Positions 31,227 to 53,735 of a DNA stretch of 64,000 nucleotides are shown piece after piece (the stretch's first letter is position 1; each line of letters starts with the position of its first letter). A program made the position numbers and the translations under genes. Under the pieces are notes generated by a model, which saw only the letters and a list, made by a program, of their open reading frames with translations, was not told the DNA's origin and ran no database searches. The DNA comes from an uncultured Fibrobacter sp. (lineage in GTDB: Bacteria > Fibrobacterota > Fibrobacteria > Fibrobacterales > Fibrobacteraceae): assembly GCA_946413655.1 (NCBI GenBank), contig CAMKLO010000002.1, positions 78,744 through 142,743 on the forward strand, written 5' to 3'.

Positions 31227-31234
31227 TTATGCGA

Positions 31235-34013: not shown

Positions 34014-37000
34014 TTATTTTGTTCTCTTGATACCGAAGGTCCGTTTTTGTTCGAACGAAGCTTTCGAAGAGAAGTTCTTGGCAATCTTCGGATCGTTTTT
34101 CACTTCGGGGTTATTCATGTTGGGCGAGAATGTCGCTTCGATTTCGGCCTTGTATATGTAGGCGCCTGTTCCAACGGCTCTGTCTTCCTTGGAACGCAGT
34201 CCAGAAGGCGACTTGTTAGCCCATTCGATGATGAATTCGATATTGTTGTTGGACATGAGGTGAATCTTTGGATCTACATAGAAAGACTGGTGGAAGCGAT
34301 TGACGAAATTGCCGAGGTTCGAGTAAATTGGAATATTGAACTTGACAAGGAGTTTTTCCCAAGCGCATTCTTCGCCGAAAGAGGCTCCGCGAGGTACTGT
34401 CAATTTGACATCGAAAATCGCTCCGTTGATATCGGTGGAATCGATACCGGCCAAAGTCACGTTGCCGTTTTGTATAAGGTCGAACTTGTTGCTTGTCTGA
34501 TTTTTGACATAGAGACGCATTGTTTCTGGGACGTTGACCATTGTGCGGTTGTTCGAATTTGCATCGGTAATGTTGTTGCGGAGATCCATGTCGAATTTGA
34601 TTTTGGGAGCTCCGTTTCCGTCAATAGGAATCCACGGCACATCAAATTCCGGATAGTTGCCGTTGGCGTCCTTGAACGAACTCGTCATCATGGAACCCAT
34701 TCTTACAAAGTCGCCCTCCATGACTGCTCCTACGAAGTCTCCCATATAGAGAATGGAAAGGCCGGAATTGTTTTGCGAATAGCTCCAGTTCGAGAAATTG
34801 CTGCTGAACGCGTTGGACTGCTTGTCCGCACGCATGTGCCTGTAGAATTGCTGCGAAGAATCCGCTAAGACAAGGGGCTCGCTTGCGGTGATGTTCAAAA
34901 TGTCGGCGGTTGCTGTCTGGCTGATGATTGCTGAAACATAGACCGGACCGACCTTGTCCTCGGCGAGTACGGTGCTTGTTTCGGTGGCAGCTCCTGTACC
35001 AAGGTACTGTGTGACAAGGCCTGCATGGCTGAGCATCTTGCCTCCAGGCAGCATCCCGTCGAATGGACCGGCGGTATTGCCGAATTGGAACGGCTTAACA
35101 AGATCGATAGAGAGATTTGCTCCGTTGAAGGCTAGCAGGTTCTTTTCGACTGTAAGCGTTTCGGGCTTTGCCAAGCCAAAGATAATCTCCAGTTTTTCCG
35201 GGATGTGCTTTGCATCGGGGGCGCGTTCGAAAACCACATCGACATGGCTTGCGTAGCCGTTTTGGTTTTTATCGGTAATGACGGCGTATATCATCGGGAT
35301 AGGTAAAATCTTGAGGAGAATTTCGACTTTTTCCGGTGTGCAGACGCCTGCAACCCCGTTCCCGTTCAAGTCGGTGATAGAGCCTGCCGGGTCGAGTTGT
35401 CCCCACATGCCTGCGTTGACGAGAGAATTGTTCGCTGCATCAAAGGCAATTTCGAAGTCCCAGATGTTCTTCGCTTCGTTGTAGAGCTTAGCCGATGTGA
35501 CGATTGGCGTTGCAGCCTTGGTCGTCTTGTCGGTACCGTAGAGAACGAGCGGGAAGTTCGTACCCGGTGCAGAAATCGGTTCGCTGAATTGCAGATAAAG
35601 GTGATCTGCCGTTGCGGTATCCTGGCGTTCGAGAATCGTTGCCGAAATGAGTGCCGGCGGCATGCCGTCGGAATAGGAATCGTCGACGGTCTTTACTTGT
35701 CCTTGAATGTCGCTGGTGAGCGTAATCTTTCCGGTGGCGTTCGTCACGACTTCTTTTGGAACATCGATGTTCACAACGAGGGATCTGCCACTTAACGATT
35801 TGACAGTGCTCGAAGTGTATTCCTTGTTTTCGTAGGTGAACGTAATCGATGTGAACCTCTGTTTTTCCAGGTATTCCGACGAAAGAGTGATGTCCATGGC
35901 GTCAGGAATGTGGTCGCAGTCCAAATCGACAATCTTTGCTTTGTCGATAATTGGCCAGGGCGGAAGATCTTCGATGTTCAACTCGGCTGTGGCCGGCGTG
36001 TAGGCGTAATCCTTGTTGCTGACGTGCGTTGCGGAAATGGTTGTCTTCACGGCGATCTTGGAACTGACGTAAATCGTTGCGACACCGTCATAAAGCGTTA
36101 CGGACGTTACAGGAATTGTTGCTGTCGGGTCGGTGTAGAAGAGAACGTTCGGATCTTCGGTTACCAAATCGACGTTCAAGTTCTTCTCGTCCTTAAGCAG
36201 TTCTAGATTGCTGTCGAGGAGCGAAATTTGAACTTCGATGAATTTGTTCTTGTAACCCACGACGTTATTTTTGTCGAATACGAGGTAGCGTTTTTCAGGC
36301 GGGATGGTGATACTGTCGATTTCGACGTTGGAACGGACATAGGCGCATGCGCAATCATACTTGTTTTCGCTCTTCTGGTTTGCGTTTCTGTTGTGCCAGC
36401 TGACCCATTCGATATAATTGTTGCCATAGGCGAGTACCGTATCTTGTTTTCCGAAGGTAATGGCATCGGTGCGCTTGGGGTTCACGTATTCGAACGGATA
36501 TGGATTGCTATTCATTTCTACGGCGTCGAGGAGACCTGTCGGCGAAACTTTGCTTGTTGCCGAGTAAGTCGTGAGCGTGTCCTCCTTTTCGACGGAGTAG
36601 TGTGGGGTCACGAACGGGCTAGTGAAGGTGATTTCTACGTTGCGGTTCACTTGCGGGCCTGTTTCCGGTGTGTCGTCCGGAGCGTAGCCGTATATGTGCT
36701 TGCCGTGGTAATAGACGGGGACGTAGGGGTCGCGAACCATGGCGATAACTTTTTCTCCGCGAGAGTTCCTTTCGAGCTGTGCGGTTTCGGAGCCGGTATA
36801 GTATGGGGCCTGCGTTAGGTCGATGCCTTCGAACTGTTCTGGGGCGTCGTCTCCCGTATGGGCGATAAGCGACCAGCCGTCATTGAAGTTCGCATATGTT
36901 GCGTTGAGCCATTTGATTTGGAAGATGATTCGTCCGGAAACGTAGAGCTTGTCATTGACTGTTATGGGGAGATAGTATTGTCCTGCCTTGTCTTGTGTTT

Positions 37001-39881
37001 GCGGGCCGAAGGTGACTAGGGGCTTGCTTGGATCGACGCGGGGGACGACGAGGCCTGTTCCGCCAAACACCTGTCCGATGTAGCTTACAGGTGTTTCAAG
37101 ACTTGCGTCTGCACCGAGGTAAAGGCGAAGTTCGAAATCCTGGAAATCCGTCGTGTCGTTGTTGTCGATTTCGACGATAAAGTCGCCGCAATTTTTCCAA
37201 TTGTTGCCGGAACACTTGGACGTATTCTGGTAGGCGCTCGGCTTGATGTAAATGTCTAGGTCCGCATAAGCCGCGTGGGATTCCGTCTTGAACGAGAATT
37301 CTTCGGATGTCGTTGTGCCGGAGGAAACTGTAAAGAAGTATTCCGTGCCTGCTTCAAGTCCTGTGAGTATGGCTTCGTGGAAAAGTACGGCGCCACCGCT
37401 TGCTGCTGTTGATTGCGTATAGTTGCCTCTGGTCTTGCCGAAATTGACAATACCGTTCAAGCGGTCGGTTGACCACCAGTAAATCTTTGCACTGCGGTGA
37501 TCGACCTGGCAAATCGTAACGCCCTTGATTTGAGTGCCAACCGGAGTCATGGTGAACTTGTACCAATAACCGTGGTTGTCATCCGTGGTGAGGTTCCTCT
37601 TGGTGTCCATGCCTTCGAGGAAGAAGTAGTATGTTTGCCCCGGGGTAAGTCCGGTAAGCGTTACGGAACCGCCCTTGGATGCCTTTTCCTGCTGTACGGA
37701 TTTGGCCGTATTGGCATTTGTGGTAACGTCGTAGAATACGGTCACGATGGCGACTTCGTTAGCGTCCCAGCTCACGATGGCGGTGGAATCCGAAATAGGA
37801 GTTCCGACGATGTTGCTGAAAATCGGGCCTTCGTTATCGGGCGGGAGCGTTTCGGCGAGGCTCTGTGCCGGGAAGAGGAACTGTGCGGAGAAGTCGATGC
37901 AAGTTTCGGTGGAGGTGTATTTGCTCCAGTCTTCAATAAGCGTCTTTTCGGGGTCGCGTCCACCCATGAGGGCGCCTTTCGGGCATTTGTACTTGTATGG
38001 CATGCCGCCTGCGTTGTAGCCGTCAGGGTTTGCAGAACGGTTATGCGGATGTTGCGGGTTCTTGTCGCCTGCACCCATCAAAAGGGAAATATCCCACGGG
38101 TTTGCGCCGAGAGCGTAATACATGTTGTCCAAAGCCACTTTCAGGTAGCGTTCGTCCTTTGTGAGTTCGTACATCAAGAAAATGGAAACGGCGGTACCCA
38201 AGTTGTAGCGGATAACGCCCCAGTCAAAACTCGTCCAGACAAGGTTGTATGGAGTAATGACCTTGAGGTCGGTGCGGCCTTCATGCGGGTCGCCTGTGCC
38301 TACGCCCGGATTCACGAGAACCGTAGAGTCGCCCTGGTTCGTGGCATCATTCAGAATCTTGCGGAATGTGGCCATGGTACGCATCGAAAGCGAGTCGCGT
38401 TCGATTTCGCTAAGTCCGTATTCCGCGGCCGTTTCCTGGTTCTTCAGAATCAAGTTCTGGAATGCGAAAAGAACGTAGGTGTGGATGTTCTGGTAGTCCG
38501 TTGCCCAGCCTCCGGGCGAAAAACCGCTTTCATTGCCGAGGAATCCAGCCCTGAAGTAGTCTAGGTTGAACCGGTAGTTGGTGGGATTGTTGAAAATATT
38601 GGTGTTCTTGTAAAGGTCGTAACGGTAAGTCGTGTCCTTGGTGGCATACCACAAGGCGAGAGCCGCCGCTGCACCGTCGTCATAGCGTGGGCCGCCACCG
38701 GTGTAGAAACCAGGGAACGATGTTGTCTTTCCTGATTCATTACCGCTGCCGTAGTCAAAAAGCGGCATCATCACGTTCTTGTAGATGTCCTTTGCGGCTT
38801 CAAGGAGCGTGTCTGCGTAGGCTGCGTCATAGACGCGGTAACCAGCGGCAACGTTTGCAAGCGCTGCAACGAACATGCCGGAGGTGTTTGCGCCGATACC
38901 GGTCAATACGACGCGATCCGGCCCGCCTTTGGATTCCGGTTGCGCATCCTGGCGTTCCGGCAAATCCCAGAACTGGTGGTCCTTTTCGTCAACGCCCACG
39001 GAGTGGTACATGTCGTTTTTGGCAATCAAACCGTCTGCTTTGGATGCCCTGTAGAGTTTCAGAATAAAGTCTGCACCGATTTTGGCTTCGTGGAGAATGT
39101 CCGGAATACCATCTGTAAAGACTGTGTCGGCGTAAGATTCACCATAGCGGTCTTCAGCCTTGTTGGGGTAGGTGAGGTAAACCATTGAAAGTACATAAGC
39201 TGTATAACCGAGAGTTTCGGATACCTTGAAATGGTCACCGCAGTCGTGCCAGCCTCCTGTCAAGTCATGCCCGATTTTGGAGCCGTCCTTCAAGTGGCAA
39301 GGAGCATGGAAGTGCGATTTTGTGTTTCCGCAACGTTGGATGCCGAAGAACTGTAACGAGTTCTCGAGAATGGCATTGTAAATGGAGGGGTGAACATGGA
39401 AAGTTGCCGAGGTATCGTTCCCGACGACGAGGAAGTATTCGCCCGTTGTTGAAAGGGATGTGAAGTCGGCTCGGTACAAGTCTTCTTTCTGGGTGCTGAT
39501 GGAGTCCTGTTTGCCGAATTCGTAGATGCTTTCCAGGGAGTTGAACGAACCGTTAATCCAGATGTTGGGCTTTGTTGCGCCTTTCTTGATAAGCGTCAGG
39601 TTTCCGCCACCTGGCACTTCTTTACCACTGTTCGCGTCAATGACCTTGAAAGTTCTTTCCTTCGGGTCTGCCACGTAGGCGTACTTGTAATCCTGAGGTC
39701 TGAACCCGCTTTGGTTTATACGGATGGGGCGTCTGTCATAGACGTTGAGGGAGTCCAGGTATCGACGGCTGCAATCTGTACAAGTCCTGTCGATATTGGG
39801 AAGACTTGCTCGTTCTGCGGCAACTACTTGGTCTACGCAGAATAAAGCCAATAATGAAATTACGCTAATCAATTTTTTCAT
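34014..39881 (-). CDS. GH9 cellulase, multidomain secreted
   Basis: Signal peptide; N-terminal RINQSGFRP Ig-like domain; GGWHDCGDHFKVSE; LLMGAGDKNPQHPHNRSANPDG; TSTETCIDFSA; Fn3-like repeats; basic tail GIKRTK. Confidence 0.93.
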   Translation of the reverse strand: MKKLISVISLLALFCVDQVVAAERASLPNIDRTCTDCSRRYLDSLNVYDRRPIRINQSGFRPQDYKYAYVADPKERTFKVIDANSGKEVPGGGNLTLIKKGATKPNIWINGSFNSLESIYEFGKQDSISTQKEDLYRADFTSLSTTGEYFLVVGNDTSATFHVHPSIYNAILENSLQFFGIQRCGNTKSHFHAPCHLKDGSKIGHDLTGGWHDCGDHFKVSETLGYTAYVLSMVYLTYPNKAEDRYGESYADTVFTDGIPDILHEAKIGADFILKLYRASKADGLIAKNDMYHSVGVDEKDHQFWDLPERQDAQPESKGGPDRVVLTGIGANTSGMFVAALANVAAGYRVYDAAYADTLLEAAKDIYKNVMMPLFDYGSGNESGKTTSFPGFYTGGGPRYDDGAAAALALWYATKDTTYRYDLYKNTNIFNNPTNYRFNLDYFRAGFLGNESGFSPGGWATDYQNIHTYVLFAFQNLILKNQETAAEYGLSEIERDSLSMRTMATFRKILNDATNQGDSTVLVNPGVGTGDPHEGRTDLKVITPYNLVWTSFDWGVIRYNLGTAVSIFLMYELTKDERYLKVALDNMYYALGANPWDISLLMGAGDKNPQHPHNRSANPDGYNAGGMPYKYKCPKGALMGGRDPEKTLIEDWSKYTSTETCIDFSAQFLFPAQSLAETLPPDNEGPIFSNIVGTPISDSTAIVSWDANEVAIVTVFYDVTTNANTAKSVQQEKASKGGSVTLTGLTPGQTYYFFLEGMDTKRNLTTDDNHGYWYKFTMTPVGTQIKGVTICQVDHRSAKIYWWSTDRLNGIVNFGKTRGNYTQSTAASGGAVLFHEAILTGLEAGTEYFFTVSSGTTTSEEFSFKTESHAAYADLDIYIKPSAYQNTSKCSGNNWKNCGDFIVEIDNNDTTDFQDFELRLYLGADASLETPVSYIGQVFGGTGLVVPRVDPSKPLVTFGPQTQDKAGQYYLPITVNDKLYVSGRIIFQIKWLNATYANFNDGWSLIAHTGDDAPEQFEGIDLTQAPYYTGSETAQLERNSRGEKVIAMVRDPYVPVYYHGKHIYGYAPDDTPETGPQVNRNVEITFTSPFVTPHYSVEKEDTLTTYSATSKVSPTGLLDAVEMNSNPYPFEYVNPKRTDAITFGKQDTVLAYGNNYIEWVSWHNRNANQKSENKYDCACAYVRSNVEIDSITIPPEKRYLVFDKNNVVGYKNKFIEVQISLLDSNLELLKDEKNLNVDLVTEDPNVLFYTDPTATIPVTSVTLYDGVATIYVSSKIAVKTTISATHVSNKDYAYTPATAELNIEDLPPWPIIDKAKIVDLDCDHIPDAMDITLSSEYLEKQRFTSITFTYENKEYTSSTVKSLSGRSLVVNIDVPKEVVTNATGKITLTSDIQGQVKTVDDSYSDGMPPALISATILERQDTATADHLYLQFSEPISAPGTNFPLVLYGTDKTTKAATPIVTSAKLYNEAKNIWDFEIAFDAANNSLVNAGMWGQLDPAGSITDLNGNGVAGVCTPEKVEILLKILPIPMIYAVITDKNQNGYASHVDVVFERAPDAKHIPEKLEIIFGLAKPETLTVEKNLLAFNGANLSIDLVKPFQFGNTAGPFDGMLPGGKMLSHAGLVTQYLGTGAATETSTVLAEDKVGPVYVSAIISQTATADILNITASEPLVLADSSQQFYRHMRADKQSNAFSSNFSNWSYSQNNSGLSILYMGDFVGAVMEGDFVRMGSMMTSSFKDANGNYPEFDVPWIPIDGNGAPKIKFDMDLRNNITDANSNNRTMVNVPETMRLYVKNQTSNKFDLIQNGNVTLAGIDSTDINGAIFDVKLTVPRGASFGEECAWEKLLVKFNIPIYSNLGNFVNRFHQSFYVDPKIHLMSNNNIEFIIEWANKSPSGLRSKEDRAVGTGAYIYKAEIEATFSPNMNNPEVKNDPKIAKNFSSKASFEQKRTFGIKRTK

Positions 39882-39916
39882 GTTTGTGCAATCTCCTAAA
39901 ACCCAATCAAAAATAA

Positions 39917-39949
39917 AGAGCTGCCAGGACGCTTAAATCCTGGAGCTCT
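39917..39949 (-). terminator. intrinsic terminator after GH9 (39958-46431)
   Basis: Minus strand AGAGCTCCAGGA-loop-TCCTGGCAGCTCT followed by TTATTTTT. Confidence 0.8.
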
Positions 39950-39957
39950 CCGGTTCA

Positions 39958-42900
39958 CTATTTCCTCCTCTTGAAGCCAAGAGTCTTTGTTGTGTTGTCG
40001 CTTGTTTTTTCGACCCTGTCGCCGGCAGCTTTGCAAGATGCCTTGTAGTCGTTGCTTGTTTCTTCGAAAGCTATTGCGCAGAAGGATTCCGCTCTGAAAT
40101 CGAATTTAGCAATGTAGGCGCCAGTTCCAATCTTGTGCCCCTTCTTTGCAACAGGGGCTTCGTTGTCTTTGGCCGCCCATTCCAAATTGAGCTTGAGGCT
40201 ACCGTTATCGATAAAGTTCCTCATCGGGGCAAATTTTTCTTTCGGGATGTCTAGCTTATATGTGTTGATATACTGCCCGAGGTTGTCGTAGAGATCCATG
40301 ACAATCTTCAAGCTGTAATCGTACATATACTGTCCGCCATGAGTCATGAAACTTGCGGAAGGCATCGAAATCTCGATTTTGAAGGTCGGACCCGAACCAA
40401 TGTAGACAGCCGTATCGATTTGACCGAGGCTTGTTCCGTCTGTGCTGATGAAGTTATGCTTACCGTCGATTGTCGCTGTCATGACGAACGCATCGTTATT
40501 TGTTGCTTCTGGGCGTCCGACATAGGCGTTATTTCCCGGCGTGGCAACTGGTTTGGAAAGCGTAGTCGTGAAACGGACGTTGTCGTCACCAGTGATACGG
40601 ACATAAGGATTCTGCACAGTCGGGACGTTGTTGTTCTTGTCGATGTAGGCGGCTCCGAGGACGTCAGGAACAAGACGGATGCGGTCACCGGCATGGACTA
40701 TGTTGTCATTCTCTTTATAGGTGAAGAGATACGTTTTTCCGGATCCTTGAGGCTTTTCTGGCGGGATTAATTCACCGCGTTCACGCTGGATGTATTTGCC
40801 AACATCGAGCATATTAACAGGTTCGGATATATTGACAGAGAGGAGGTCGTTGATCATGCGGGCGCTGGAAATGACCGGAGAGCACTTGTCGTACAATGTG
40901 AATGTCGATTCGAAGAATCCGTTTGCAACACCCTTGTGCGGGGATATCGTGCCGTTACCGTCCTTCTCACCGCTTGTAGAACCGTAAGGATAGGCGAGGT
41001 TTGCCGGAATTTTGATCTCGATAATGCTGTAGGTGTTGACGGAATCCTTCGACGTCACCGAGTCAATCATGACTTTGAAAGATGCGGAGACTGAGTCACG
41101 GATGGTCCAGTAACTTTCCTTGGGCTTGATGGTACCGCCGGTGGTATCGGCCGTGGTCCTGAACGAACGCGTAATGCCCGGATTTCCCCAGACAGTCACA
41201 ATGCTATCGAACATGTCCTTTGTCTTGAGCTTTTGTTCGAACATGATGTAGACCTTGTCCGGGATGCCGTCGCCTTCCAAGTCAATCATTTCGGCATGAT
41301 AGACGCCGACTGGTCTGGAAATGAGCGTTACCGTGACGGTCTTGCAACCGGCAGCGTTGATTCCGTTGAAACTCTGGTCGGTGATGGTGAAATCGTTTGT
41401 TGTTCTTGGAGTGACTTGTGCTCCAACCGGTACTAGAGCGTTGTTCGTATTACCGCTGATGATAAATGTCCAGCTCTTTCCGTTGTTCGTCGTAGTTCCC
41501 TTTCCGACAACTGTAGGTACGCCTACAGCTCCGGCGATGGCGAGCGGCCATTCGCTTTCGGGCGAGAGAATTACCGGTTCCGAGAATGCCACCATGACGG
41601 TATCGAGACCGCTGTTGTCGCTGTCGGATTTTTCAAGGATGGATACGCTTTCGAGTGTGGGAAGGATACCGTCCGTAATCCTTACCGTTTCCGGGCTCGC
41701 ATTGCCGTGGTCGTTTACGTAAGTCGTTATCGTTCCGGACGGATTTGCGTTTGTTTGGACAAGGCTCGTGTCGATCGGGATGATGACGTCGTTCTTGTCG
41801 GCGTACTTGGAGGCGTCGAGCGCTACCTTCACGGAATCGGCCATGCCTTCGATAAAGTACTTGATGCTGTCGAGCTTGTAGTCCTCGTTGAGCTTGTTCG
41901 AGAAGACGATTCTCAGCTGGTCAGTCTTGTTGTCGCAGTCAGTATCTTCAGCAAGCACTTTCTGCGGTACGGGCACCTTGGATTCGGCGAAGAACGTGTA
42001 CTTGGAAATATCGTCTTCGTCATCCGGGTCGATATAGACGATTTGGATGGTGTCACCGGGGAAGAACGAAATTTCGGAAGACTGGTTCCTTGTTTCCTTG
42101 GAGTGGCTCACTGCCGTAATCGGGCCTCCGACAAAGTGTCCGGGGTTCGCCGGGTCGGCGTTCAAGGTCACGGTGAGTTCGTCGTCCTTCTTGCTGTTGA
42201 TAATCTTGATATCGACGCTCTTGGCATTGCTCTTGATCTTGTCCTTGTCCATCAAGTCGATGTAGAACGTCGTACCTTCAGGATTGGCGGGGCTGATCAC
42301 CGGGTTCCCCTGGGCGTCCTTGATGACAAACTGGGAGGCCGTGGCGTCGCCCTTGGTGAAGTTTATGTAGTAGGTCCTGTTCTCGAATGCGCAACCGCCG
42401 CCTTCGACACAAGTTTCGCAAGTGGGGTTCGGACCAGCAAATATGGTGAGGTCTACTTTCTTGCTGCCAAGAGTCATCTTGACCGGGATATCGAGATCCC
42501 ACATGTCGGTCGGGATGTCGTACTTGGCGATAATCTTTGTTCCGGATTCGTCGAGGATCCATTTGTCGAGTCCGTCGAAGAATGCCATGCCGCTAATCTT
42601 CACGCCGTTGGCCCAAATCTTCGTGATGAAGCCGCCTTCGGTAATGTGGGCCTTTCCGGTGACATGGACGGTGCTGCTGGTCTGGTCAATATCGATATGG
42701 GAGCCGTTGGAAACGTTGAACGGAGGATCGAGTGTTACCGTCATCCTGTATTTGGCTCTCTTGGTTTCCATTTCTTTCTTGGACGGGCTGTATCCCCAAA
42801 TGAATTCGTCTTTACGATAGACGGAAACGTAGGGATTGTCTGGTGCTACGTCAAAGTTGTCGTCTCCTTCATTCTTAGGTATGCACGGCATGCCAGGGTA

Positions 42901-45900
42901 GTCTTTTTCTTCGTTGTTTGTACGGGAATGTGGCATCCAGCTCCAGTCGCCCGGATTCTCGTTCAGAGTGAGCGCCGCGGCATATTCATAGGACGGGGCG
43001 TACCACTTGTTATTTTCCAAGCAGTAAAGCTTTTTCTTCGGGGCTTCGTTCATTAAGTCCTTATATGGTGGGTATGGGCTTCGGTGGTCGAATCTTACGT
43101 CAAAGCGTAAGCGGCTCGCGCTCTGGATGACTGTGGAACCGAGGTTTAGCGGGAAGTACCATTGCCAGGTTCCCGTCGCTTCGTCGTAGGTGTCCTCAAT
43201 TTTGATCGGGTGGGCGTCGCGGAGGTTCCTTTCTAGTTCATCCTTCGTTTCCGGGGAACAATTTCCGCTGAAGCCTGCGGAGGAGTATGCGTTACAGATG
43301 TCCGTGCCCATGCCGATATCGTTTTCGATTTCATCGGTTCCGCGCATGTAGATTCTAATCGTCAAGCTGTCGAATGGTCTTGATTCGTTGTTGAAGACGT
43401 TTATGTTCACCATGGCCATGTCGCCTTGCCACGGATACTGGTAGGTCTTCACGCTGAAGTCGTACCACATTACAGGAGTCGTGAACTTGAGCAGGTTATT
43501 GTCGTCGTCAACGGTGGTTTGTACGCCATTGCTTTCGACCATGAAGTAGTAGGTCGTCTTTTCCTTGAGTCCGCCGATTTTCACGTAGTGGAACTGTGTT
43601 GGGATACCGGAGACGTCGGCGTTGCCGGCACCGGAATTGAACGCAAAATCGCTGGCGTTGGTGTGCGGCTTTGTATCCCAGTAAATTTTGGACTCGTATT
43701 CGCCGTTCGGGGTGTACCACATGATTTCGGCACTGTCGGCAGTAACGTTACAGACGGTGACGTTTGCGATGTTTGCGGGGTCGGCTGTGGGGCGCGTCGT
43801 GAACGTGAACGGTGTCAGCGGGTCTTCCCTGGCGTACTTCGTCTTTGTGTTTGCCGGGTTGTAGGCGTTTGCACCTGTGACGTAGAAGTAATAGGTAGTA
43901 CCCGGTTTCAGGTCGCGCAAGACGATATCGTGCTTTACTCCAGAGTTTTCGCTTGATGCGGTCTTGTCGTACTGGCCTTCTGTTGTGCCATAGTGGATGG
44001 TGGCCGTGCCACGTACGGAGAGCTTGATGGTCACGATGGCGGAGTCCACGCTCACATGGCGGATTTCGACATCGATATCCGGGGCGGTAGTCTTGTCGAT
44101 TTGCTTGGAGGCGAGGGTTACTGTACTTACTAAAGTTGCGGCAGCGTCGATACAGATTTCGGACATTTCATAGTCTTCCCAGCTCAGCTTGCCTGCTTTT
44201 CCCATATTTCCGTCTCCGTCAGGACCGCCTGTCGGGGGAACTGCGCCATAAAGACCGCCGACAGGGGGTCTGTAGTAGTATTTCGTCTTTCCGCCAGGCA
44301 CGTTTGTACCTTCGGGGTTTGCTCCACGGTGGTGCGGGTGGGCGTCGTTCTTGTCGCCGATGCCCATGATAAAGGAAATATCCCAGGGGTTCACACCGAG
44401 CAGGTAGTTCAGTTGGTTGATGCCTAGCTGTTTGGCTTCAGCGGCTTTCCAGTTCGGAGTTCCCATGTTGGGGAGTGAAAGGCCCTTCTTTTCGATGTCG
44501 TTGGCGACATCGGCGTAGGCCAGAACTTCAAAGATATCACCAGCACGGTAACGGTTGTAGATCCAGTTCTGGTCGGTGTGCATGGTGTACCAAATCTTGT
44601 CATAGGTGAATTGGCTTTGTTTCCAAATATTGGGAACTTGCGGCATGATAAAGGTTTCTGGAGTTCCGTCGTAGCTGCCCATATCGCCTAGGTTCGCAAT
44701 CATGTTGGCAACGCAGTCTTCGATAGCGTTCAGCCATTCCGTTTCGGAGAGTCCGTATTTTTGGATGGCCGTGTCCTTGTCGGCAAGGATAAGCTTGTAC
44801 AATCCGTAAAGCGCGTAAGAATAGGAGTTTGCCCAGCTGGTGTTCTTTACATTCTTGAGGAAGGCTTTGTCGGCTGTGACGAACCAGCCACCGTCAAAAA
44901 ATCCTGCACCTTGACCATATTGCTGGTTTGCACCTAGCAGATTCTTAGTACGGAGGGCGTAGTCGGCGTATTCCTTTTTGCCAGTTGCATAGAGGAGCGC
45001 AACAGATGCCAACGCCATATCATCAACAAATTCGTTGTTTCCTTGGTAAGCGGGGGAAGAAATTGCCAAAGCCTTGTTATGGGTGATTGTCTTTCCACCA
45101 TCATAGTTTCTCTTGCCTTGTGCCACGGCGTTGGCGAAGTCGAACATTTTTTCGGCGACCATGATGCAGCTGTCGGCGAAAGCCTTATGTTCGGGGTATT
45201 CGGAATACAGCTTGCCTACGAGAGCGAGACCCGCGGCCGTTTCGCCACCGACGTTGGCTCCGATTTCGCCAAGACGGACAGTTCTTGTTCCTGGACCGCC
45301 ACGGTCTGTCGCTTCTGCGGAATTACCGATAGGGAGATCGTCCTGGTTCTCAGGAGGGCCCCACCATCCGTGGTCCGAACCGAAGTTACCAACGGAGAGA
45401 GCCATGTCGTCGATGACTCCCTTGGCGCGAATGAAGGAACGCAGGACGAAGTCGGCCCCATGCTTTGCTTCGCGGAGCATGTCCGGAATGCCGTCCTTGT
45501 TGATGGTTTCGTTCTGGTTGAATGCGTAGTTGTCTTCGTCGGCGTTCGGGTTCGTTGCCGCCATCAACGCTACGACCATGAAGGCGTACATTTGGGTCTG
45601 GGATTCCTTCAGGTGGTCACCGCAGTCGTAGTAGCCGCCCTGGAGAGTTCCTGCCGTGGCGGCGTTATAAGGTCCGCGAACATCCTCGGGTCCTTCTGTA
45701 ACCGGACCTGCACCATCCAGGGCATGGCTAGAACCGCCATTACGGAACCAGGATTCCGCGATACCGCTACGGTTGACTCCATAGAACTTGAGGGCTGCGG
45801 CTTTCACCATGGAATAGAGTCTGTCGCTTACAATGAATGTGCTCGAAATATCTTTGCCAACTTTAATGCGTAGACGCGTCTCAAGAGGGACGTTCTGGGG

Positions 45901-46431
45901 AACGTGGCCCATTTTCAAGTCTCCGGAGGGGCCGGTGGCCCTTACTGTATAACGCTGCTGGTCGTTGGTGGCTGCATTCGTGCCTGCGGTAATCCGCCAT
46001 GTGGAAGAAGCCTTTTTATTAAGTGGGGTTAGTGATCCGGTTATGGCTGGGGATAAAGATTTGCCGTTGACATCGACGATTTCGAAAGAAGATTCGCTAC
46101 CCACGTAATAGAACATACGTTCCGGGTCGTCTTCCAGATATCCGGCCTGGTTCACGCGGATAGGGGATATCTTGACGTTCATTGCATCTAGGTACGCTTG
46201 GTTCAGCGAGTCGGGAATAAATACGTTTGGAGCATAAGACGCCGGTGTCAGGTTTTTTGGCAACATGTTCCTTTTCTTGGTAACCGATGTGTCAAAATTC
46301 TTGAAAACAGTGCTGTCCCAGGTAAGTGGGTATATCGGTCTAAGCAAGTCATAAGGAGTGGGCTGCTCCTGCTGCGCGGCCACGAAACTGGCTGCGGCGC
46401 ATAATGCTAACAGGTACTTCTTAATAGACAC
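39958..46431 (-). CDS. GH9 cellulase, multidomain secreted (tandem paralog 1)
   Basis: GTG start at 46431 preceded by AAAGGAGACAAC; signal peptide SIKKYLLALCAAASFVAAQ; GGYYDCGDHLKESQTQMYAFM; IMGIGDKNDAHPHHRGANPEGTN; SEICIDAAATL; tail GFKRRK. Confidence 0.93.
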   Translation of the reverse strand: MSIKKYLLALCAAASFVAAQQEQPTPYDLLRPIYPLTWDSTVFKNFDTSVTKKRNMLPKNLTPASYAPNVFIPDSLNQAYLDAMNVKISPIRVNQAGYLEDDPERMFYYVGSESSFEIVDVNGKSLSPAITGSLTPLNKKASSTWRITAGTNAATNDQQRYTVRATGPSGDLKMGHVPQNVPLETRLRIKVGKDISSTFIVSDRLYSMVKAAALKFYGVNRSGIAESWFRNGGSSHALDGAGPVTEGPEDVRGPYNAATAGTLQGGYYDCGDHLKESQTQMYAFMVVALMAATNPNADEDNYAFNQNETINKDGIPDMLREAKHGADFVLRSFIRAKGVIDDMALSVGNFGSDHGWWGPPENQDDLPIGNSAEATDRGGPGTRTVRLGEIGANVGGETAAGLALVGKLYSEYPEHKAFADSCIMVAEKMFDFANAVAQGKRNYDGGKTITHNKALAISSPAYQGNNEFVDDMALASVALLYATGKKEYADYALRTKNLLGANQQYGQGAGFFDGGWFVTADKAFLKNVKNTSWANSYSYALYGLYKLILADKDTAIQKYGLSETEWLNAIEDCVANMIANLGDMGSYDGTPETFIMPQVPNIWKQSQFTYDKIWYTMHTDQNWIYNRYRAGDIFEVLAYADVANDIEKKGLSLPNMGTPNWKAAEAKQLGINQLNYLLGVNPWDISFIMGIGDKNDAHPHHRGANPEGTNVPGGKTKYYYRPPVGGLYGAVPPTGGPDGDGNMGKAGKLSWEDYEMSEICIDAAATLVSTVTLASKQIDKTTAPDIDVEIRHVSVDSAIVTIKLSVRGTATIHYGTTEGQYDKTASSENSGVKHDIVLRDLKPGTTYYFYVTGANAYNPANTKTKYAREDPLTPFTFTTRPTADPANIANVTVCNVTADSAEIMWYTPNGEYESKIYWDTKPHTNASDFAFNSGAGNADVSGIPTQFHYVKIGGLKEKTTYYFMVESNGVQTTVDDDNNLLKFTTPVMWYDFSVKTYQYPWQGDMAMVNINVFNNESRPFDSLTIRIYMRGTDEIENDIGMGTDICNAYSSAGFSGNCSPETKDELERNLRDAHPIKIEDTYDEATGTWQWYFPLNLGSTVIQSASRLRFDVRFDHRSPYPPYKDLMNEAPKKKLYCLENNKWYAPSYEYAAALTLNENPGDWSWMPHSRTNNEEKDYPGMPCIPKNEGDDNFDVAPDNPYVSVYRKDEFIWGYSPSKKEMETKRAKYRMTVTLDPPFNVSNGSHIDIDQTSSTVHVTGKAHITEGGFITKIWANGVKISGMAFFDGLDKWILDESGTKIIAKYDIPTDMWDLDIPVKMTLGSKKVDLTIFAGPNPTCETCVEGGGCAFENRTYYINFTKGDATASQFVIKDAQGNPVISPANPEGTTFYIDLMDKDKIKSNAKSVDIKIINSKKDDELTVTLNADPANPGHFVGGPITAVSHSKETRNQSSEISFFPGDTIQIVYIDPDDEDDISKYTFFAESKVPVPQKVLAEDTDCDNKTDQLRIVFSNKLNEDYKLDSIKYFIEGMADSVKVALDASKYADKNDVIIPIDTSLVQTNANPSGTITTYVNDHGNASPETVRITDGILPTLESVSILEKSDSDNSGLDTVMVAFSEPVILSPESEWPLAIAGAVGVPTVVGKGTTTNNGKSWTFIISGNTNNALVPVGAQVTPRTTNDFTITDQSFNGINAAGCKTVTVTLISRPVGVYHAEMIDLEGDGIPDKVYIMFEQKLKTKDMFDSIVTVWGNPGITRSFRTTADTTGGTIKPKESYWTIRDSVSASFKVMIDSVTSKDSVNTYSIIEIKIPANLAYPYGSTSGEKDGNGTISPHKGVANGFFESTFTLYDKCSPVISSARMINDLLSVNISEPVNMLDVGKYIQRERGELIPPEKPQGSGKTYLFTYKENDNIVHAGDRIRLVPDVLGAAYIDKNNNVPTVQNPYVRITGDDNVRFTTTLSKPVATPGNNAYVGRPEATNNDAFVMTATIDGKHNFISTDGTSLGQIDTAVYIGSGPTFKIEISMPSASFMTHGGQYMYDYSLKIVMDLYDNLGQYINTYKLDIPKEKFAPMRNFIDNGSLKLNLEWAAKDNEAPVAKKGHKIGTGAYIAKFDFRAESFCAIAFEETSNDYKASCKAAGDRVEKTSDNTTKTLGFKRRK

Positions 46432-46458
46432 GTTGTCTCCTTTACATATGGAAAAATC

Positions 46459-46478
46459 GGGCAAAACGAGTCTTGCCC
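46459..46478 (-). promoter_or_regulatory. leader hairpin plus T-tract upstream of GH9 paralog 1
   Basis: Minus strand GGGCAAGACTCGTTTTGCCCGATTTTT about 28 nt before the start codon. Confidence 0.6.
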
Positions 46479-46697
46479 TCTGACTATATTCTATCAAAAG
46501 ATAAAATAGATTATTTATGTAAAAATGTATTGTGATATATTCCTTTTTTGTTCTCAAAATATTCTTCAGTTTGCTTTTTATTCCTTTAAATGTATCATAT
46601 GAATAAAGAACATGAAAAAATAAAGTAATTGAAAACTTCTGGCTTTCTTTTTAACTGAACAATGTATCTGAAATTTTACAAACAAGAAAGAAAAAGG

Positions 46698-46721
46698 CTC
46701 CTGAATCGTCAAATCCAGGAG
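46698..46721 (-). terminator. intrinsic terminator after GH9 paralog 2
   Basis: Minus strand CTCCTG-loop-CAGGAG followed by CCTTTTTCTTTCTTG. Confidence 0.75.
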
Positions 46722-46727
46722 ATTCTT

Positions 46728-49700
46728 TTAAATTTTTCTCTTGAAACCGAATGTCTTGGTTTTGCTACCAGTAGCTTTATCGGCCTTGATTCCGACATTT
46801 TCGCATGTTTGGTTGTAGTCATTGTCGGATTTTTCAAATTTCGCAGCGCAGAAGGATTCTGCCGTGAAGTCGAATTTCGCGATGTAGGCTCCTGTACCAA
46901 TTTTATTGCCCTTTTTGGCGACGGGGGCTTCGTTGTCCTTGGCTACCCATTCCAGGTTGAGCTTGAGTATTCCGTTATCGACAAGGCCTCGCATGGATGT
47001 GAATTTTTCCTTCGGGATGTCTAGCTTATAAGTATTGACGTATTGCCCGAGATTGTCGTAAAGATCCATGACGACTTTTAGGCGGTAATCGTACATTGGC
47101 ATACCCTCGTGGGTCATGAAATTTGCTGAGGGCATTGTAATTTCAACTTCGAAATTCGGACCGGAACAGGCGTAGATCAATGTGTCGGCTTGACCCAGTA
47201 GAGTTCCATTTTCGTCGATGAAATTGTTCTTGCCGTTGACTATGGCCGATGTCACAAATGCTTCGTCCTTTAAAGATTCCGGACGGCCCATGTAAGCGTT
47301 TGTCTTGGGCGTTGCGACTGGGTTTGAAAGTGTCACCGTGAAGCGGATGTCGTCGTCACCTGTGACGCGGACCCATGGGTTCTCCTGTTGCGGGATGTTG
47401 CTGTTCTTGTCGATATAGGCGGATCCGATATTCTCCGGGACGAGCTTGATCATGTCACCCGCATGGACCACGTTGTCCTTTTCGTTATAGGTGAAGAGAT
47501 ACGTTTTCCCTGCACCCTGCGGCCTTTCGGGCGGAATGTAGTTGTCGCGTTCGCGGACGATGTACTTGCCCGTTTCGAGCATGGTGACGTTTTCGGAGAT
47601 GTTGACCGTGAGCAGGTTCTTGATCATGCGTGCGGAGGTGATGATTGGCGGGCATTTATCATAAAGCGTGTATGTCGTTTCGAAAAATCCGTTTGCGGCG
47701 CCTTTGAGTGGAGATACCATTCCGTTCCCGTCTTTTTCGCCGCTTGTAGAACCTCTTGGGTATGCGAGGTTGTCTGGAATATTGATTTCGATGATGCTGT
47801 AGGTGTTGGTGGAATCCTTTGTCGTCGAATCGGCAAGCATCACCTTGAACGGAGCTGAAACGGAATCGCGGATGGTCCAGTAATTTTCCTTAGGCTTGAT
47901 TATGCCGCCGGTGGTATCTGCCGTGGTCACGAACGTGCGCGTGATGCCCGGATCGCCCCAGACCGTCACGATGCTGTCGAAGATGTCCTTGGGCTTGAGC
48001 TTGCGTTCGAACATGATATAGACCTTGTCCGGAATGCCGTCGCCCTGAACGTCTATCATTTCTGCATGATATACGGGGACTGGGCGGCTGATGAGCGTTA
48101 TGGGCACGCTGGGCTTGCAACCGGTTGGGCTAATCGGATTGAAACTTTGATCGGTAATGGAAGTGCCTCCCGTTGATCTTGCACTAGCTTGTGCTCCTAT
48201 TGGGACGAGTGCGTTATTTGTATTACCGCTGATAACAAATGTCCAACTCTTTCCGTTGTTTGCTGTTGTTCCCTTCCCGACGACGGACGGTATGTCTGCA
48301 ACACCGGCAATGGCAAGTGGCCATTCACTTTGGGACGAGAGAATTACCGGTTCCGAGAAGGCTATCATGACGGTGTCGAGATCGCTGTTGTCGTTGTCGG
48401 ACTTTTCAAGAATGGAAACGCTTACGAGCGTGGGTGGGATTCCGTCTGTAATCTTCGTAGTTTCTGCATTGGGAGTCCCTTGGTCGGCAACGTATGTCGT
48501 AATCTTTCCAGAGGGGTTTGCGCTTGTCGGGACGAGGCTTGAGTCTATCGGGATGATGACCTCGTTCATGTCCGCGTACTTGGAGGCGACAAGCGGAACC
48601 TTGACGGTATCGCTCATGCCGTCAATAAAGAACTTGATACTGTCCAGCGTGTATCCGTCGGAGAGTTTGTTCGAGAAGGTTATCTTCAACTGGTCCACTT
48701 TGTTGTCGCAGTTGGTGTCTTCGGCGAGTACCGTCTGCGGCGATGGTATTTTGGATTCCGCATAGAAGGAGTACGTGGAAATATCGTCCTCGTCATCCGG
48801 GTCAGTATAAGTTATCTGGATAGTATCGCCTGCAAAGAACGAAATTTCTGAAGTCTGGTTCCTCGTTTCCTTGGAGTGGCTGATGGCTGTAATTGGACCC
48901 CCGATAAAGTGTCCCGGGTTGGTGGGGTCGGCTTTCAGGGTGACCTTGAGGACGTCGTTCTTTTTGTTGTTCGTGACAAGAATATCGAGATTTTGGGTTT
49001 GCGTTTTACCTTCTACTTTGTCCTTGTCCATCAAGTCGATGTAGAACGCCGTACCTTCGGGATTGGCAGGGCTTACAATCGGTTTGCCGTTGGCGTCCTT
49101 GACGACAAGTTGAGATTCTGTCGCTTTTTCTTTCGAGAAGTTCACGTAATAGTTCCTGTTTTCGAAAGCGCATCCGCCATTTTCGACACAGGTTTCACAG
49201 GTGGGATTCGGTCCTGCGAATACCGTGATATCCACTTTCTTGGAGCCGATGCTCATCTTGACCGGAATGTCGAGATTCCACATGTCCGTCGGGATGTCGT
49301 ACTTGGCGATGATGTTCTGTCCGTCCGCGTCCAGAATCCATTTGTCGAGACCGTCAAAGAACGCCATGCCGGTGATTTTTACGCCGTTCGCCCAGATTTT
49401 CGTGATGAATCCGCCTTCGCTGATGTGAGCCTTGCCGGTGACGTGGACGGTGCTGCTTTTCTGGTCGATATCGATATGGGAACCGTTGGAAACGTTGAAC
49501 GGGGGGTCGAGTACCATGTTGATTTTGTAGTTGGCTCTCTTGGTTTCCATTTCCTTTTTAGAAGGACTGTAACCCCAGATAAATTGGTCCTTGCGGTACA
49601 CAGATACGTAAGGATTCACGGGAGCTGCATCGAAGTCGCTGTCTCCTTCATCCTTGCTTATGCACGGCATGCCCGGATAATCCAATTCTTCGCCGTTTGC

Positions 49701-52700
49701 GCGGGAATGCGGCATCCAGCTCCAGTCGCCCGGATTTTCGGCCAAAGAGGTGGCTCCCGCAATATTGGTAGGAGAGTACCATTTGTTGCCTTCTTTGCAA
49801 TAAAGTTTCTTCTTTGGCGCTTCGTTCATCAAGTCCTTGTAAGGTGGATATGGACTGCGGTGGTCGAATCTCACGTCAAAGCGCAGGCGGCTCGAACTCT
49901 TGATGACTGTAGAACCCAAATTCAGCGGGAAGTACCATTGCCATGTTCCCGTCGCTTCGTCGTAGGTGTCTTCGATTTTGATGGGGTGGGCGTCGCGGAG
50001 GTTTCTTTCCAGTTCCTGTTTCGTAGCCTCTGTACATTCGCCACTGAAACCGGATTCGTCGTATGCGTTGCAGATGTCCGTACCCATTCCGATATCGGTG
50101 TCTATTTCGTCGGTTCCGCGCATGTAGAGGCGGATGGTCAGGCTGTCGAATGGTCGTCCTTCGTTGTTGAACACGTTGATGTTCAGCATGGACATGTCAG
50201 ACCAGTTGTATTGATATGTCTTTACGCTAAAGTTGTACCACGCTACAGGTGTCGTGAACTTGAGACGGTTGTTTTCGTCATCGACTGTAGTTTGCGCGCC
50301 GTTGCTCTCGACCATGAAATAGTACGTTGTCTTTTCCTTGAGACCGCCAATTTTCACGTAGTGGAACTGGGTGGGAATGCCGGAAATGTCTGCGTTGCCG
50401 GCTCCGGTATTGTACGCAAATTCGGTAGCGGTGGAGTGCGGTACGGTATCCCAATAGACTTTGGATTCGTATTCTCCGTTCGGGGTGTACCACATGATTT
50501 CGGCGCTATCCGCAGAAACGTTACAGACGGTGACGTTTGCGATTTCCGCGCTTTCGACGTTGCTTCTTGTCGTGAAAAAGTAAGGGGCTTGGGTGCTATC
50601 AACGCGGAACTTGGTCGTCACGTTTTCCGGCTTGTAGGCGTTTGCGCCCGTGACATAGAAGTAGTAGGTTGTGCCGGGTGTCAAGTCACGGAGTATTATG
50701 TCGTGTTGGATTCCGAGGGCTCCATCTGTTGCTGTCTGGTTGTACTCGCCTTCGGTTGTGCCGAAATGGATGACGGCCGTGCCGCGCTGGGTGAGGTTGA
50801 CGGTCACGATTGCCGAGTCCGCGCTTTTGTGGCGGATTTCTACGCTAATCTCTGGAGCAATCGTCTTGTCGAATTTGTGGGCGAGAATGCTCACTGTGCT
50901 TAAGAATGTAGCCGAAGCGTCAATGCAGACTTCGGATTTTTCGTAATCTTCCCAGCTTATGGATTTGGGTACCAGGGAGTTGCCCATACCGGGCTTTATT
51001 CCGCCAAGGAATGCGCCTGCAGGGACTTTGTACGGATAGGGGCTGCCAGCGACGTTTGTGCCTTCGGGGTTTGATGCGCGGTGGTGCGGGTGGGCGTCGT
51101 TCTTGTCGCCTACGCCATAGATAAACGAAATGTCCCACGGGTTAACGCCTAGCATGTAGTTTATTTGGTTGATGGCCAGCTGGTACATTTCGTCGGATTT
51201 CCAGTTCGGGGTCCCCATGATAGGGAGCGAAATTCCCTGTGCTTCGATGCTTTTTGCGACATCGACGTATGCCAACACATCGAACATGTTGCCGGCCTGG
51301 TAGCGGTTGTAAATCCATTCGCCTTGGGGGGAACCCATGTTGTACCAGTCTGCGTCATACCTGACGGTAGTCGGTTTCCACATGATACTTCCTGCGGGCA
51401 GCTCAATGGATGCGTTACCGCTTCCTTCCGACATGTCGCTGACATTGTAGATCAAGTTTGCTATACAGTCTTCGACGGCGTTTAACCATTCTTCTTCGGT
51501 TAGGCCATATTGGTTCATGGCCTTGCTCTTGTCGGCAAGGATGAGCTTGTATAAGGCATAAAGCGCAAACGTGTAGCTATTCGCCCAGCTTGTTGTCTTT
51601 ACGTTTTTCAAAAAGCCTTTGTCGTTGGTGACGAACCAACCGCCCTGGAAACAACCGGCGCAGTTTTCCATGTATTCCTGCGTAGGGGCGGTTTGTCCTT
51701 CATTGCCGATTTTTGCACCTGCTGTTACTAAATTCCTGGTGCGGATCATATCGTCGGCGTATTGCTTTTTGCCTGTCGCGTAGAGGAGTGCAACAGAAGC
51801 TAGCGCCAAGTCGTCGTAAAATTCGTTGTTCCCGTTGTACGCCTTGCTGGACCAGCCCGCGGCTTTGGTGTTGTTCTTGATATTTTTTCCGCCATCGTAG
51901 GTAGTTTTGCCTTGCGCCAAGGCTTTCGCCATGTCGTACATTTTTTCGGCGACCATCAAGCAGCTGTCGGCGAAGGCATCGAAGTCGGAGCCCAATTCCC
52001 TGTACATCTTGCTGAGAATGGCGAGGCCTGCAGCCGTTTCACCGCCGATGTTCGCCCCGATTTCGCCGAGGCGAACCATTCTAGAGGCTGGGCCTCCGCG
52101 GTCTTTCGCCGATGGGGAACCGTCTACAGGAAGATCGTCTTGATATTCCGGGCGTCCCCACCAACCGTGATCGGAGTCCTTGGTGCCGATAGAAAGGGCC
52201 ATGTCGTCGATAACGCCCTTTGCGCGGATAAAAGAACGGAGAATAAAGTCGGCTCCGTGCTTTGCTTCGCGGAGAACGTCCGGAATACCGTCGATGCCGC
52301 CTGCCGCGTGGTTGAATTTGTAATGGTCCACGTCTGCATCCGGATTTGTCGCGGCCATGACAGCGGCGGCCATGAATGCATACATCTGGGTTTGCGATTC
52401 TTTTAGGTGGTCGCCACAGTCGTAGTATCCGCCTTGGAGTGTTCCTGCGAGGGCGGCGTTGTAGGAATTTCTAATTTCTACTGCGTCTGTGACTGCGACT
52501 CCGCCGGCGCCATCTTTTGTGTGGCTGGCCGGGTGGAACCACGAATCGCCATAGCCGCTGCGGTTGATTCCGTAGAACTTGATGGCGGCGTCCTTTACCA
52601 TGGTATAAACCAGGTCGGATACAATGAATGTGCTTGAAATGTCGTTGCCTACCTTGATGCGGAGACGGGTATCGGTAGGGACTCCTTGCGGAACGTTACC

Positions 52701-53219
52701 GATCATGATATTACCGGATTGGCCGGTGATATCGACTCGATAGCGTTTCTGGTCGTTCGTGGCGGCGTTTGTGCCCGCGATAATGGTCCAGTCGGAGGAG
52801 GTCGTGCGGCCGGAAGGCTTGAGATTCCCTGTGATGGCCGGGGTAAATGACTTTCCGTTGACATCTACGATTTCAAAAGTCGTCGCATTACCGATAAAAT
52901 AGAATTGGCGTTCCTTGTCGCTTTCCAGATAGCCGGCCTGGTTCAAACGGATTGGCGACATGTGGTAATTGATGGCGTCTAGATAAGCTTGCTTCAGTGT
53001 ATCGACGATAAATGCGTTCGGGGCGTAAAAAGGAGTCGTCTTCTCGGGCAGCATGTTCTTTTTTTTAGTGACCGAGGTATCAAAGAAATTAAATACAGTC
53101 GTATCCCACGTTAACGGGAATGTAGGTCTAATCAAATCATAAGGAGTCGGTTGTTCTTGCTGCGCTACAGTTATTCCTACGGCAGCGCATAAAGCCCACA
53201 GATAGCTCTTGATTTTCAC
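46728..53219 (-). CDS. GH9 cellulase, multidomain secreted (tandem paralog 2)
   Basis: Signal peptide MKIKSYLWALCAAVGITVAQ; GGYYDCGDHLKESQTQMYAFM; GVGDKNDAHPHHRASNPEGTN; SEVCIDASATFL; extensive identity with the adjacent GH9 along the full length; tail GFKRKI. Confidence 0.93.
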   Translation of the reverse strand: MKIKSYLWALCAAVGITVAQQEQPTPYDLIRPTFPLTWDTTVFNFFDTSVTKKKNMLPEKTTPFYAPNAFIVDTLKQAYLDAINYHMSPIRLNQAGYLESDKERQFYFIGNATTFEIVDVNGKSFTPAITGNLKPSGRTTSSDWTIIAGTNAATNDQKRYRVDITGQSGNIMIGNVPQGVPTDTRLRIKVGNDISSTFIVSDLVYTMVKDAAIKFYGINRSGYGDSWFHPASHTKDGAGGVAVTDAVEIRNSYNAALAGTLQGGYYDCGDHLKESQTQMYAFMAAAVMAATNPDADVDHYKFNHAAGGIDGIPDVLREAKHGADFILRSFIRAKGVIDDMALSIGTKDSDHGWWGRPEYQDDLPVDGSPSAKDRGGPASRMVRLGEIGANIGGETAAGLAILSKMYRELGSDFDAFADSCLMVAEKMYDMAKALAQGKTTYDGGKNIKNNTKAAGWSSKAYNGNNEFYDDLALASVALLYATGKKQYADDMIRTRNLVTAGAKIGNEGQTAPTQEYMENCAGCFQGGWFVTNDKGFLKNVKTTSWANSYTFALYALYKLILADKSKAMNQYGLTEEEWLNAVEDCIANLIYNVSDMSEGSGNASIELPAGSIMWKPTTVRYDADWYNMGSPQGEWIYNRYQAGNMFDVLAYVDVAKSIEAQGISLPIMGTPNWKSDEMYQLAINQINYMLGVNPWDISFIYGVGDKNDAHPHHRASNPEGTNVAGSPYPYKVPAGAFLGGIKPGMGNSLVPKSISWEDYEKSEVCIDASATFLSTVSILAHKFDKTIAPEISVEIRHKSADSAIVTVNLTQRGTAVIHFGTTEGEYNQTATDGALGIQHDIILRDLTPGTTYYFYVTGANAYKPENVTTKFRVDSTQAPYFFTTRSNVESAEIANVTVCNVSADSAEIMWYTPNGEYESKVYWDTVPHSTATEFAYNTGAGNADISGIPTQFHYVKIGGLKEKTTYYFMVESNGAQTTVDDENNRLKFTTPVAWYNFSVKTYQYNWSDMSMLNINVFNNEGRPFDSLTIRLYMRGTDEIDTDIGMGTDICNAYDESGFSGECTEATKQELERNLRDAHPIKIEDTYDEATGTWQWYFPLNLGSTVIKSSSRLRFDVRFDHRSPYPPYKDLMNEAPKKKLYCKEGNKWYSPTNIAGATSLAENPGDWSWMPHSRANGEELDYPGMPCISKDEGDSDFDAAPVNPYVSVYRKDQFIWGYSPSKKEMETKRANYKINMVLDPPFNVSNGSHIDIDQKSSTVHVTGKAHISEGGFITKIWANGVKITGMAFFDGLDKWILDADGQNIIAKYDIPTDMWNLDIPVKMSIGSKKVDITVFAGPNPTCETCVENGGCAFENRNYYVNFSKEKATESQLVVKDANGKPIVSPANPEGTAFYIDLMDKDKVEGKTQTQNLDILVTNNKKNDVLKVTLKADPTNPGHFIGGPITAISHSKETRNQTSEISFFAGDTIQITYTDPDDEDDISTYSFYAESKIPSPQTVLAEDTNCDNKVDQLKITFSNKLSDGYTLDSIKFFIDGMSDTVKVPLVASKYADMNEVIIPIDSSLVPTSANPSGKITTYVADQGTPNAETTKITDGIPPTLVSVSILEKSDNDNSDLDTVMIAFSEPVILSSQSEWPLAIAGVADIPSVVGKGTTANNGKSWTFVISGNTNNALVPIGAQASARSTGGTSITDQSFNPISPTGCKPSVPITLISRPVPVYHAEMIDVQGDGIPDKVYIMFERKLKPKDIFDSIVTVWGDPGITRTFVTTADTTGGIIKPKENYWTIRDSVSAPFKVMLADSTTKDSTNTYSIIEINIPDNLAYPRGSTSGEKDGNGMVSPLKGAANGFFETTYTLYDKCPPIITSARMIKNLLTVNISENVTMLETGKYIVRERDNYIPPERPQGAGKTYLFTYNEKDNVVHAGDMIKLVPENIGSAYIDKNSNIPQQENPWVRVTGDDDIRFTVTLSNPVATPKTNAYMGRPESLKDEAFVTSAIVNGKNNFIDENGTLLGQADTLIYACSGPNFEVEITMPSANFMTHEGMPMYDYRLKVVMDLYDNLGQYVNTYKLDIPKEKFTSMRGLVDNGILKLNLEWVAKDNEAPVAKKGNKIGTGAYIAKFDFTAESFCAAKFEKSDNDYNQTCENVGIKADKATGSKTKTFGFKRKI

Positions 53220-53241
53220 GATTCCTCCTTAATGTAAAAAC

Positions 53242-53261
53242 GGGCAAAACATGTTTTGCCC
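53242..53261 (-). promoter_or_regulatory. perfect 20-bp palindromic leader hairpin plus T-tract upstream of GH9 paralog 2
   Basis: GGGCAAAACATGTTTTGCCC followed on the minus strand by GTTTTTAC; AAGGAGG RBS just downstream. Confidence 0.7.
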
Positions 53262-53437
53262 TCTAACAGTATTGTCTTGATTATGAAAATAAGTTATTTA
53301 ATGCTGAAATGCATTAGAATAATTTTATTTCTGTTCTCAAGTCGTTCCCTGATTTATGCAAATTTTTCCCCTTGTGACTATTTGTGCGAAATACTGGATA
53401 CTTTGTTGTAATACATGCTAAATTAGTTTTTTTGACT

Positions 53438-53710: not shown

Positions 53711-53735
53711 AAAGACCGTCGCATGGACGGTCTTT
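53711..53735 (-). terminator. intrinsic terminator of the Ala-rich repeat gene
   Basis: AAAGACCGTC-GCATG-GACGGTCTTT with TTTTATTTT on the minus strand. Confidence 0.85.

Follow-up and report, generated by a model that had tools for sequence, protein, structure and literature searches.

A probable conserved RNA stem-loop in the leaders of tandem GH9 cellulase genes of Fibrobacter

Introduction

Stem-loops at the 5' end of bacterial transcripts are known to affect mRNA decay, and the ompA and papA cases of Escherichia coli are cited in a review of the subject (PMC3997798). The vacA mRNA of Helicobacter pylori carries a 5' stem-loop at positions +4 to +30, disruption of which lowers both the half-life and the level of the mRNA, while restored pairing restores both (PMC4843948). 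The two GH9 cellulase leaders described here resemble these three systems in having one short hairpin, predicted to lie in the first tens of nucleotides, on a long mRNA whose product is an abundant secreted or surface protein, and in keeping the structure while the sequence varies; vacA provides the precedent for pairing, rather than sequence, being what counts. They differ from ompA, papA and vacA in that as many as ~18 nt may separate the GH9 stem from the predicted 5' end, in that the lineage studied here adds a conserved T-run, and in that the element is known here from sequence comparison.

Hairpins have likewise been found to set cellulase transcript levels in the cip-cel cellulosome operon of Clostridium (Ruminiclostridium) cellulolyticum (PMC4423207). 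The cip-cel stems are intergenic and mainly protect the 3' ends of processed transcripts (PMC4423207), whereas the GH9 genes apparently have a promoter and a leader stem each. Leader hairpins also precede plant-cell-wall hydrolase genes in the xyl-doc system of C. papyrosolvens, where control by termination has been proposed (PMC5815224). The xyl-doc UTR is long, complex and switch-like, in contrast to the GH9 leader, which is one 20-nt stem-loop with no visible alternative fold.

The control of cellulases in F. succinogenes was called an unanswered question in the genome paper of this organism (PMC3079729), and our literature search found no report of RNA-level regulation of Fibrobacter cellulases. 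A conserved hairpin locked to a conserved promoter would offer a concrete cis-element candidate to explain why giant cellulases are expressed constitutively and at a high level, and may be of use as a part when expression is engineered in anaerobes. Should the stem only stabilize the mRNA, it would be a new example of a known principle.

Results

The tandem GH9 genes and their neighborhood

The window analyzed is a stretch of 64,000 nucleotides from an uncultured Fibrobacter sp. (GenBank assembly GCA_946413655.1, contig CAMKLO010000002.1, positions 78,744 to 142,743), and its minus strand carries two large GH9 genes in tandem, gene 1 (46728-53219, 2,163 aa) and gene 2 (39958-46431, 2,157 aa). 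The true starts are the GTG codons at 53219 and 46431, with a Shine-Dalgarno site at each (AAGGAGG at 53224-53230 and AAAGGAGA at 46436-46443, minus strand); a TTG start at 46557, given in the open reading frame list, was rejected as an in-frame extension lacking a Shine-Dalgarno site. The GH9 domain was confirmed by Pfam in both proteins, which are 72% identical to each other, and the relatives all belong to Fibrobacter or Fibrobacterales.

The gene order in the window is GH9, GH9, a 1,955-aa GH9-like gene, a histidine kinase and a sigma-54-type response regulator. In F. succinogenes S85, Fisuc_0393 and Fisuc_0394 are adjacent GH9 genes and Fisuc_0397, downstream, encodes a sigma-54-like response regulator (PMC3079729); the Fisuc_0393 protein has a mass of 233 kDa (PMC4619616). 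The order in the window probably matches Fisuc_0393 to Fisuc_0397, an assignment made by order and size. Gene 1 is thus the probable counterpart of Fisuc_0393 by size and gene order, and gene 2, the second of the pair, presumably occupies the Fisuc_0394 position. The third large GH9-like gene (34014-39957, minus strand) lies 76 bp from gene 2, with a terminator-like hairpin within the gap, and no leader hairpin of the kind found at the GH9 pair was seen before it. The histidine kinase and the response regulator (29688-33987, minus strand), directly downstream of the GH9 cluster, are candidate regulators of the cluster.

Two stem-loops precede the tandem genes

Stem-loop 1, before gene 1, is GGGCAAAACATGTTTTGCCC-GTTTTT on the minus strand (hairpin at 53261-53242, GGGCAAAA-CATG-TTTTGCCC), and was defined by sequence, fold and the orthologous leaders. 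Stem-loop 2, before gene 2, is GGGCAAGACTCGTTTTGCCC-GATTTTT on the same strand (hairpin at 46478-46459, GGGCAAGA-CTCG-TTTTGCCC), and was defined by sequence and fold. Each stem has eight pairs, including one G-U in stem-loop 2, and the predicted folding energies are -10.7 and -10.8 kcal/mol, respectively (z = -4.1 compared with shuffles); positions 53242-53261 form a perfect 20-bp palindrome. Directly after stem-loop 1, a G and a run of five T (53236-53241, minus strand) form a terminator-like tail that is conserved in the window's lineage, and GA and five T (46452-46458, minus strand) follow stem-loop 2.

A first-pass annotation of this DNA had described both hairpins, with their T-runs, on the coding strand 20-45 nt ahead of the start codons; both were found exactly there on the minus strand, and the distances measured from the end of the stem to the GTG start are 22 nt (stem-loop 1) and 27 nt (stem-loop 2). 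The -10-like sequences that it placed before the hairpins are also present, apart from the minor point that the two strings had been given in reverse order relative to the hairpins. It had further credited each upstream gene with a terminator of its own, and terminator scan and folding show that both are real, that of gene 1 at 46698-46721 and that of the gene preceding the pair at 53711-53735 (both minus strand).

The folding energy of the whole leader was not unusual, and a terminator-style scan taken alone found 13 hairpins compared with 15 expected, which is not significant; the significance of the hairpins comes from conservation, not from the scan. A known RNA family was rejected, as an Rfam search of the entire window gave no family match at the gathering threshold. 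The leader hairpins are not due to chance.

Pairing is conserved across orthologous leaders

Leaders of GH9 orthologues were gathered from ~80 genomes, and 56 were scored. The proposal in the first-pass annotation would have fallen had the leader been absent from orthologous GH9 loci; it was found there, with a stem at the same place in ~50 of the 56 leaders and 25 distinct stem sequences. A transcription start beyond the hairpin would likewise have told against that proposal, and none of the observations points to one. Over the 56 leaders, the highest-scoring stem of each leader zone had a median score of 18.8, compared with 10.9 for shuffles and 10-11 for upstream control zones. Leaders of the window's type (class A) carry GGGCAARAC-NN-GTTTTGCCC or close variants, and those of class B have other stems in that position (CGGGTAT/GTACCCG, CGGGCAT/GTGTCCG, GAGTGCA/TGTACTC, AGGACTC/GGGTCCT and GGGCC/GGCCC), while a more distant Fibrobacter (L022) has the stem ACTAAAACT/AGTTTTAGT. 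The stem is missing in some orthologues and in one distant lineage (L025), showing that it is not essential.

Since the stems had been picked for pairing, the share of cells that pair carries no weight as evidence by itself, and structure-blind alignments provide the fair tests. The structure-blind alignment of class B gave a covariation score of 0.408 compared with 0.290 when shuffled (reached in 0 of 500 shuffles), and among nine leaders with near-identical, unambiguous flanks 100% of the cells pair, as in 2 of 500 shuffles, both sets of shuffles being uncorrected for relatedness. The nine-leader alignment contains double changes as well as G-C/G-U/A-U series, and its pairing falls to 27-55% when the partner strand is slid by 1 to 3 columns. 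Class A alone shows A-U/G-U and G-C/G-U exchanges only, with no double change, and RNAalifold predicted no structure for the class B alignment, in which several rows are misaligned. Because every pair in the well-aligned leaders has survived, by way of double changes and G-U intermediates, the element would act as RNA. As shown by comparison of the leaders, the stem is under selection as an RNA structure, and in this evolutionary test it is pairing rather than sequence that appears to matter. Very probably, the palindromes encode an RNA stem-loop that is conserved in the short 5'-UTR of the tandem GH9 mRNAs, the stem falling in roughly the first 40 nt of the transcript as predicted.

The stem is confined to one orthologue group

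When the stem pattern was searched in the window's own genome with up to two mismatches, these two sites alone were found, with 0 control hits. Across 80 Fibrobacter genomes, GGGCAARAC-NN-GTTTTGCCC occurs almost solely before these GH9 genes; the few other matches all have one mismatch and are mostly asymmetric. In the own genome, a covariance model built on class A leaders found just the two leaders, besides the reverse strand of one of them and a weak match at E = 2.9. A second model, of class B, found one leader per genome where present, plus four weak matches (E = 0.003-0.007); those in three genomes were dismissed as ordinary terminators, and the fourth, in L224, was inspected and is not this element. 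With only two copies in its own genome, a genome-wide repeat element was rejected. A general feature of Fibrobacter genes was rejected as well, as both GH9 stems rank in the top six scores among 76 sampled upstream regions; several of the other top-six regions contain an apparent upstream terminator or belong to doubtful gene calls. Other GH9 groups in the genus, namely the ~2,200-aa MPFF-type and L168-L173, have no such hairpin, and the stem is therefore a feature of a single orthologue group rather than of GH9 genes generally. Elsewhere in the own genome, a TATTAT box before a secreted-protein gene (L179:10249) is directly followed by a stem of 9 bp, GCAAAAAATGATGATTTTTTGT, possibly a second case of a promoter-proximal leader stem.

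The stem keeps a fixed distance to conserved promoter blocks

Upstream of each stem-loop lies a conserved YTATTTT block (TTATTTT at 53286-53292 and CTATTTT at 46503-46509, minus strand), which would be the core-promoter block of a candidate promoter P1. Before gene 1, a GGGAAC-N5-GAGAACA direct repeat (53332-53349, minus strand), a candidate activator site, lies 46 nt upstream of this block, and before gene 2 an RRGAACA block (GAGAACA, 46549-46555, minus strand) lies 46 nt upstream of CTATTTT; the spacing between RRGAACA and YTATTTT is 45-47 nt in nearly all leaders having both blocks. In most class A leaders the hairpin center lies 41 nt from YTATTTT, whereas its distance to the start codon ranges from 31 to 41 nt. 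From the end of the stem to the start codon there are 21-32 nt in nearly all leaders and 41 in L066, which has ~10 extra nt between stem and start and the same promoter distance. Given the fixed promoter distance and the variable start-codon distance, the stem appears to be placed relative to the beginning of transcription, and the comparison shows a position that follows the promoter, not the start codon.

A -10 element directly after YTATTTT (P1, all classes) would give ~12-18 unpaired nucleotides before the stem. With the TATAnT that some class A leaders alone have 4-5 nt before the stem (candidate promoter P2), the stem would begin at +1. The P2 candidates of the window are the -10-like hexamers AATACT (53268-53273, minus strand), just upstream of stem-loop 1, and TATAGT (46483-46488, minus strand), before stem-loop 2. 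The two candidate promoters differ by ~15 nt. When promoter motifs were sought de novo in 73 upstream regions from the own genome, the result was weak, with TATATT enriched (15 compared with 5.3) and TATAAT not. A sigma-54 promoter inside the hairpin, an idea raised by the neighboring sigma-54-type regulator, was rejected by eye on the misfit of the GG to GC spacing.

Discussion

The first-pass annotation had left three roles open for the hairpins: attenuator, 5'-protective stem-loop, or operator. The comparative evidence favors the second of these, which we consider the most likely, with attenuation as its main rival; an operator is disfavored by the unrelated stems and their G-U pairs, and a general terminator by the class B leaders without a T-run. 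We put the chance that the leader stem-loop has a protective role at about even. The stem would slow 5'-end-dependent decay (by RppH, then RNase E or J) of the ~6.5-kb mRNA, would keep the AU-rich ribosome-binding region unpaired, and would support high constitutive expression of the GH9 genes; the T-run would most likely be an unstructured spacer and not a working terminator. Across samples spanning substrates and growth rates, Fisuc_0393 was expressed above the 90th percentile and its coefficient of variation stayed below 5% (PMC6204037), and in the cell-envelope proteome FSU_0809 was 1.2-fold lower on cellulose and FSU_0810 showed no significant regulation (PMC6851124). Given this steady expression and these protein levels, a constitutive stabilizing leader fits better than a cellulose-controlled switch. 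Several points count against protection. Classic 5'-terminal protection, as in E. coli ompA, tolerates fewer unpaired 5' nucleotides than the ~12-18 that a start from P1 would leave, so that such a start argues against this role; and class A conserves its T-run just as well as its stem, which shows no double changes there. The ordinary folding energy of the whole leader, the lack of an RNAalifold structure for class B and the orthologues without a stem also weigh on this side.

Attenuation would mean that the stem and T-run end part of the transcripts after ~30-50 nt, close to the promoter, and that a protein or condition relieves this block. The stem (~-10.7 kcal/mol) is followed one or two nucleotides on by T5-T7, and a run of at least four T follows it in 26 of 27 class A leaders; the xyl-doc 5'-UTR of Clostridium papyrosolvens, which blocks transcription of plant-polymer genes, is a precedent (PMC5815224). 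However, about half of the class B leaders that retain the stem (10 of 19) have no T-run, folding of the short leader shows no mutually exclusive antiterminator pairing, 1-2 nt separate the stem from the T-run, and the S85 counterpart is highly and steadily expressed. As class B stems are kept without a T-run, selection on the stem is separable from the T-run, and termination as a general function is disfavored. We therefore regard an attenuator as unlikely overall, and as possible in the lineage of the window with its conserved T-run. Slightly more doubtful is a Fibrobacter-specific cis-acting RNA regulator, in which a protein-controlled attenuator beside the fixed GAGAACA/CTATTTT promoter would make expression of the giant GH9 cellulases depend on growth or substrate.

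We consider it improbable that the stem acts in translation, exposing the ribosome site or forming a standby element while leaving decay unaffected. The distance of 21-32 nt from stem end to start codon in nearly all leaders, the weakly paired Shine-Dalgarno region and a U-rich spacer that could aid initiation are consistent with such a role, but the stem follows the promoter, not the start codon, and the ~10 extra nucleotides in L066 are tolerated. Finally, it is highly improbable that the palindromes are DNA operators to which a dimeric repressor or activator would bind where transcription starts, and this was rejected as the main reading: the perfect palindrome at 53242-53261, the strong conservation of GGGCAA...TTGCCC within class A and the fixed promoter distance would suit an operator, but the 25 stem sequences share no recognition sequence, the orthologue palindromes (CGGGTAT, AGGACTC, GAGTGCA, GGGCC and ACTAAAACT) being unrelated with pairing kept, G-U wobble pairs, which are meaningless in a DNA operator, are common, and the own genome has no further copies.

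Separately from the stem, most of these GH9 genes are preceded by GRGAAC(-N5-GRGAACA), sometimes as an 11-bp direct repeat, which looks like a candidate activator site. Exact tandem GRGAAC copies occur only twice in the own genome, the second on contig C44 (13038-13055), before a short open reading frame. The GH9 genes of L114 and L168-L173 have no leader hairpin, yet they carry an upstream GAGAAC-N5-GAGAAC direct repeat, and the candidate activator site is therefore more widespread than the stem.
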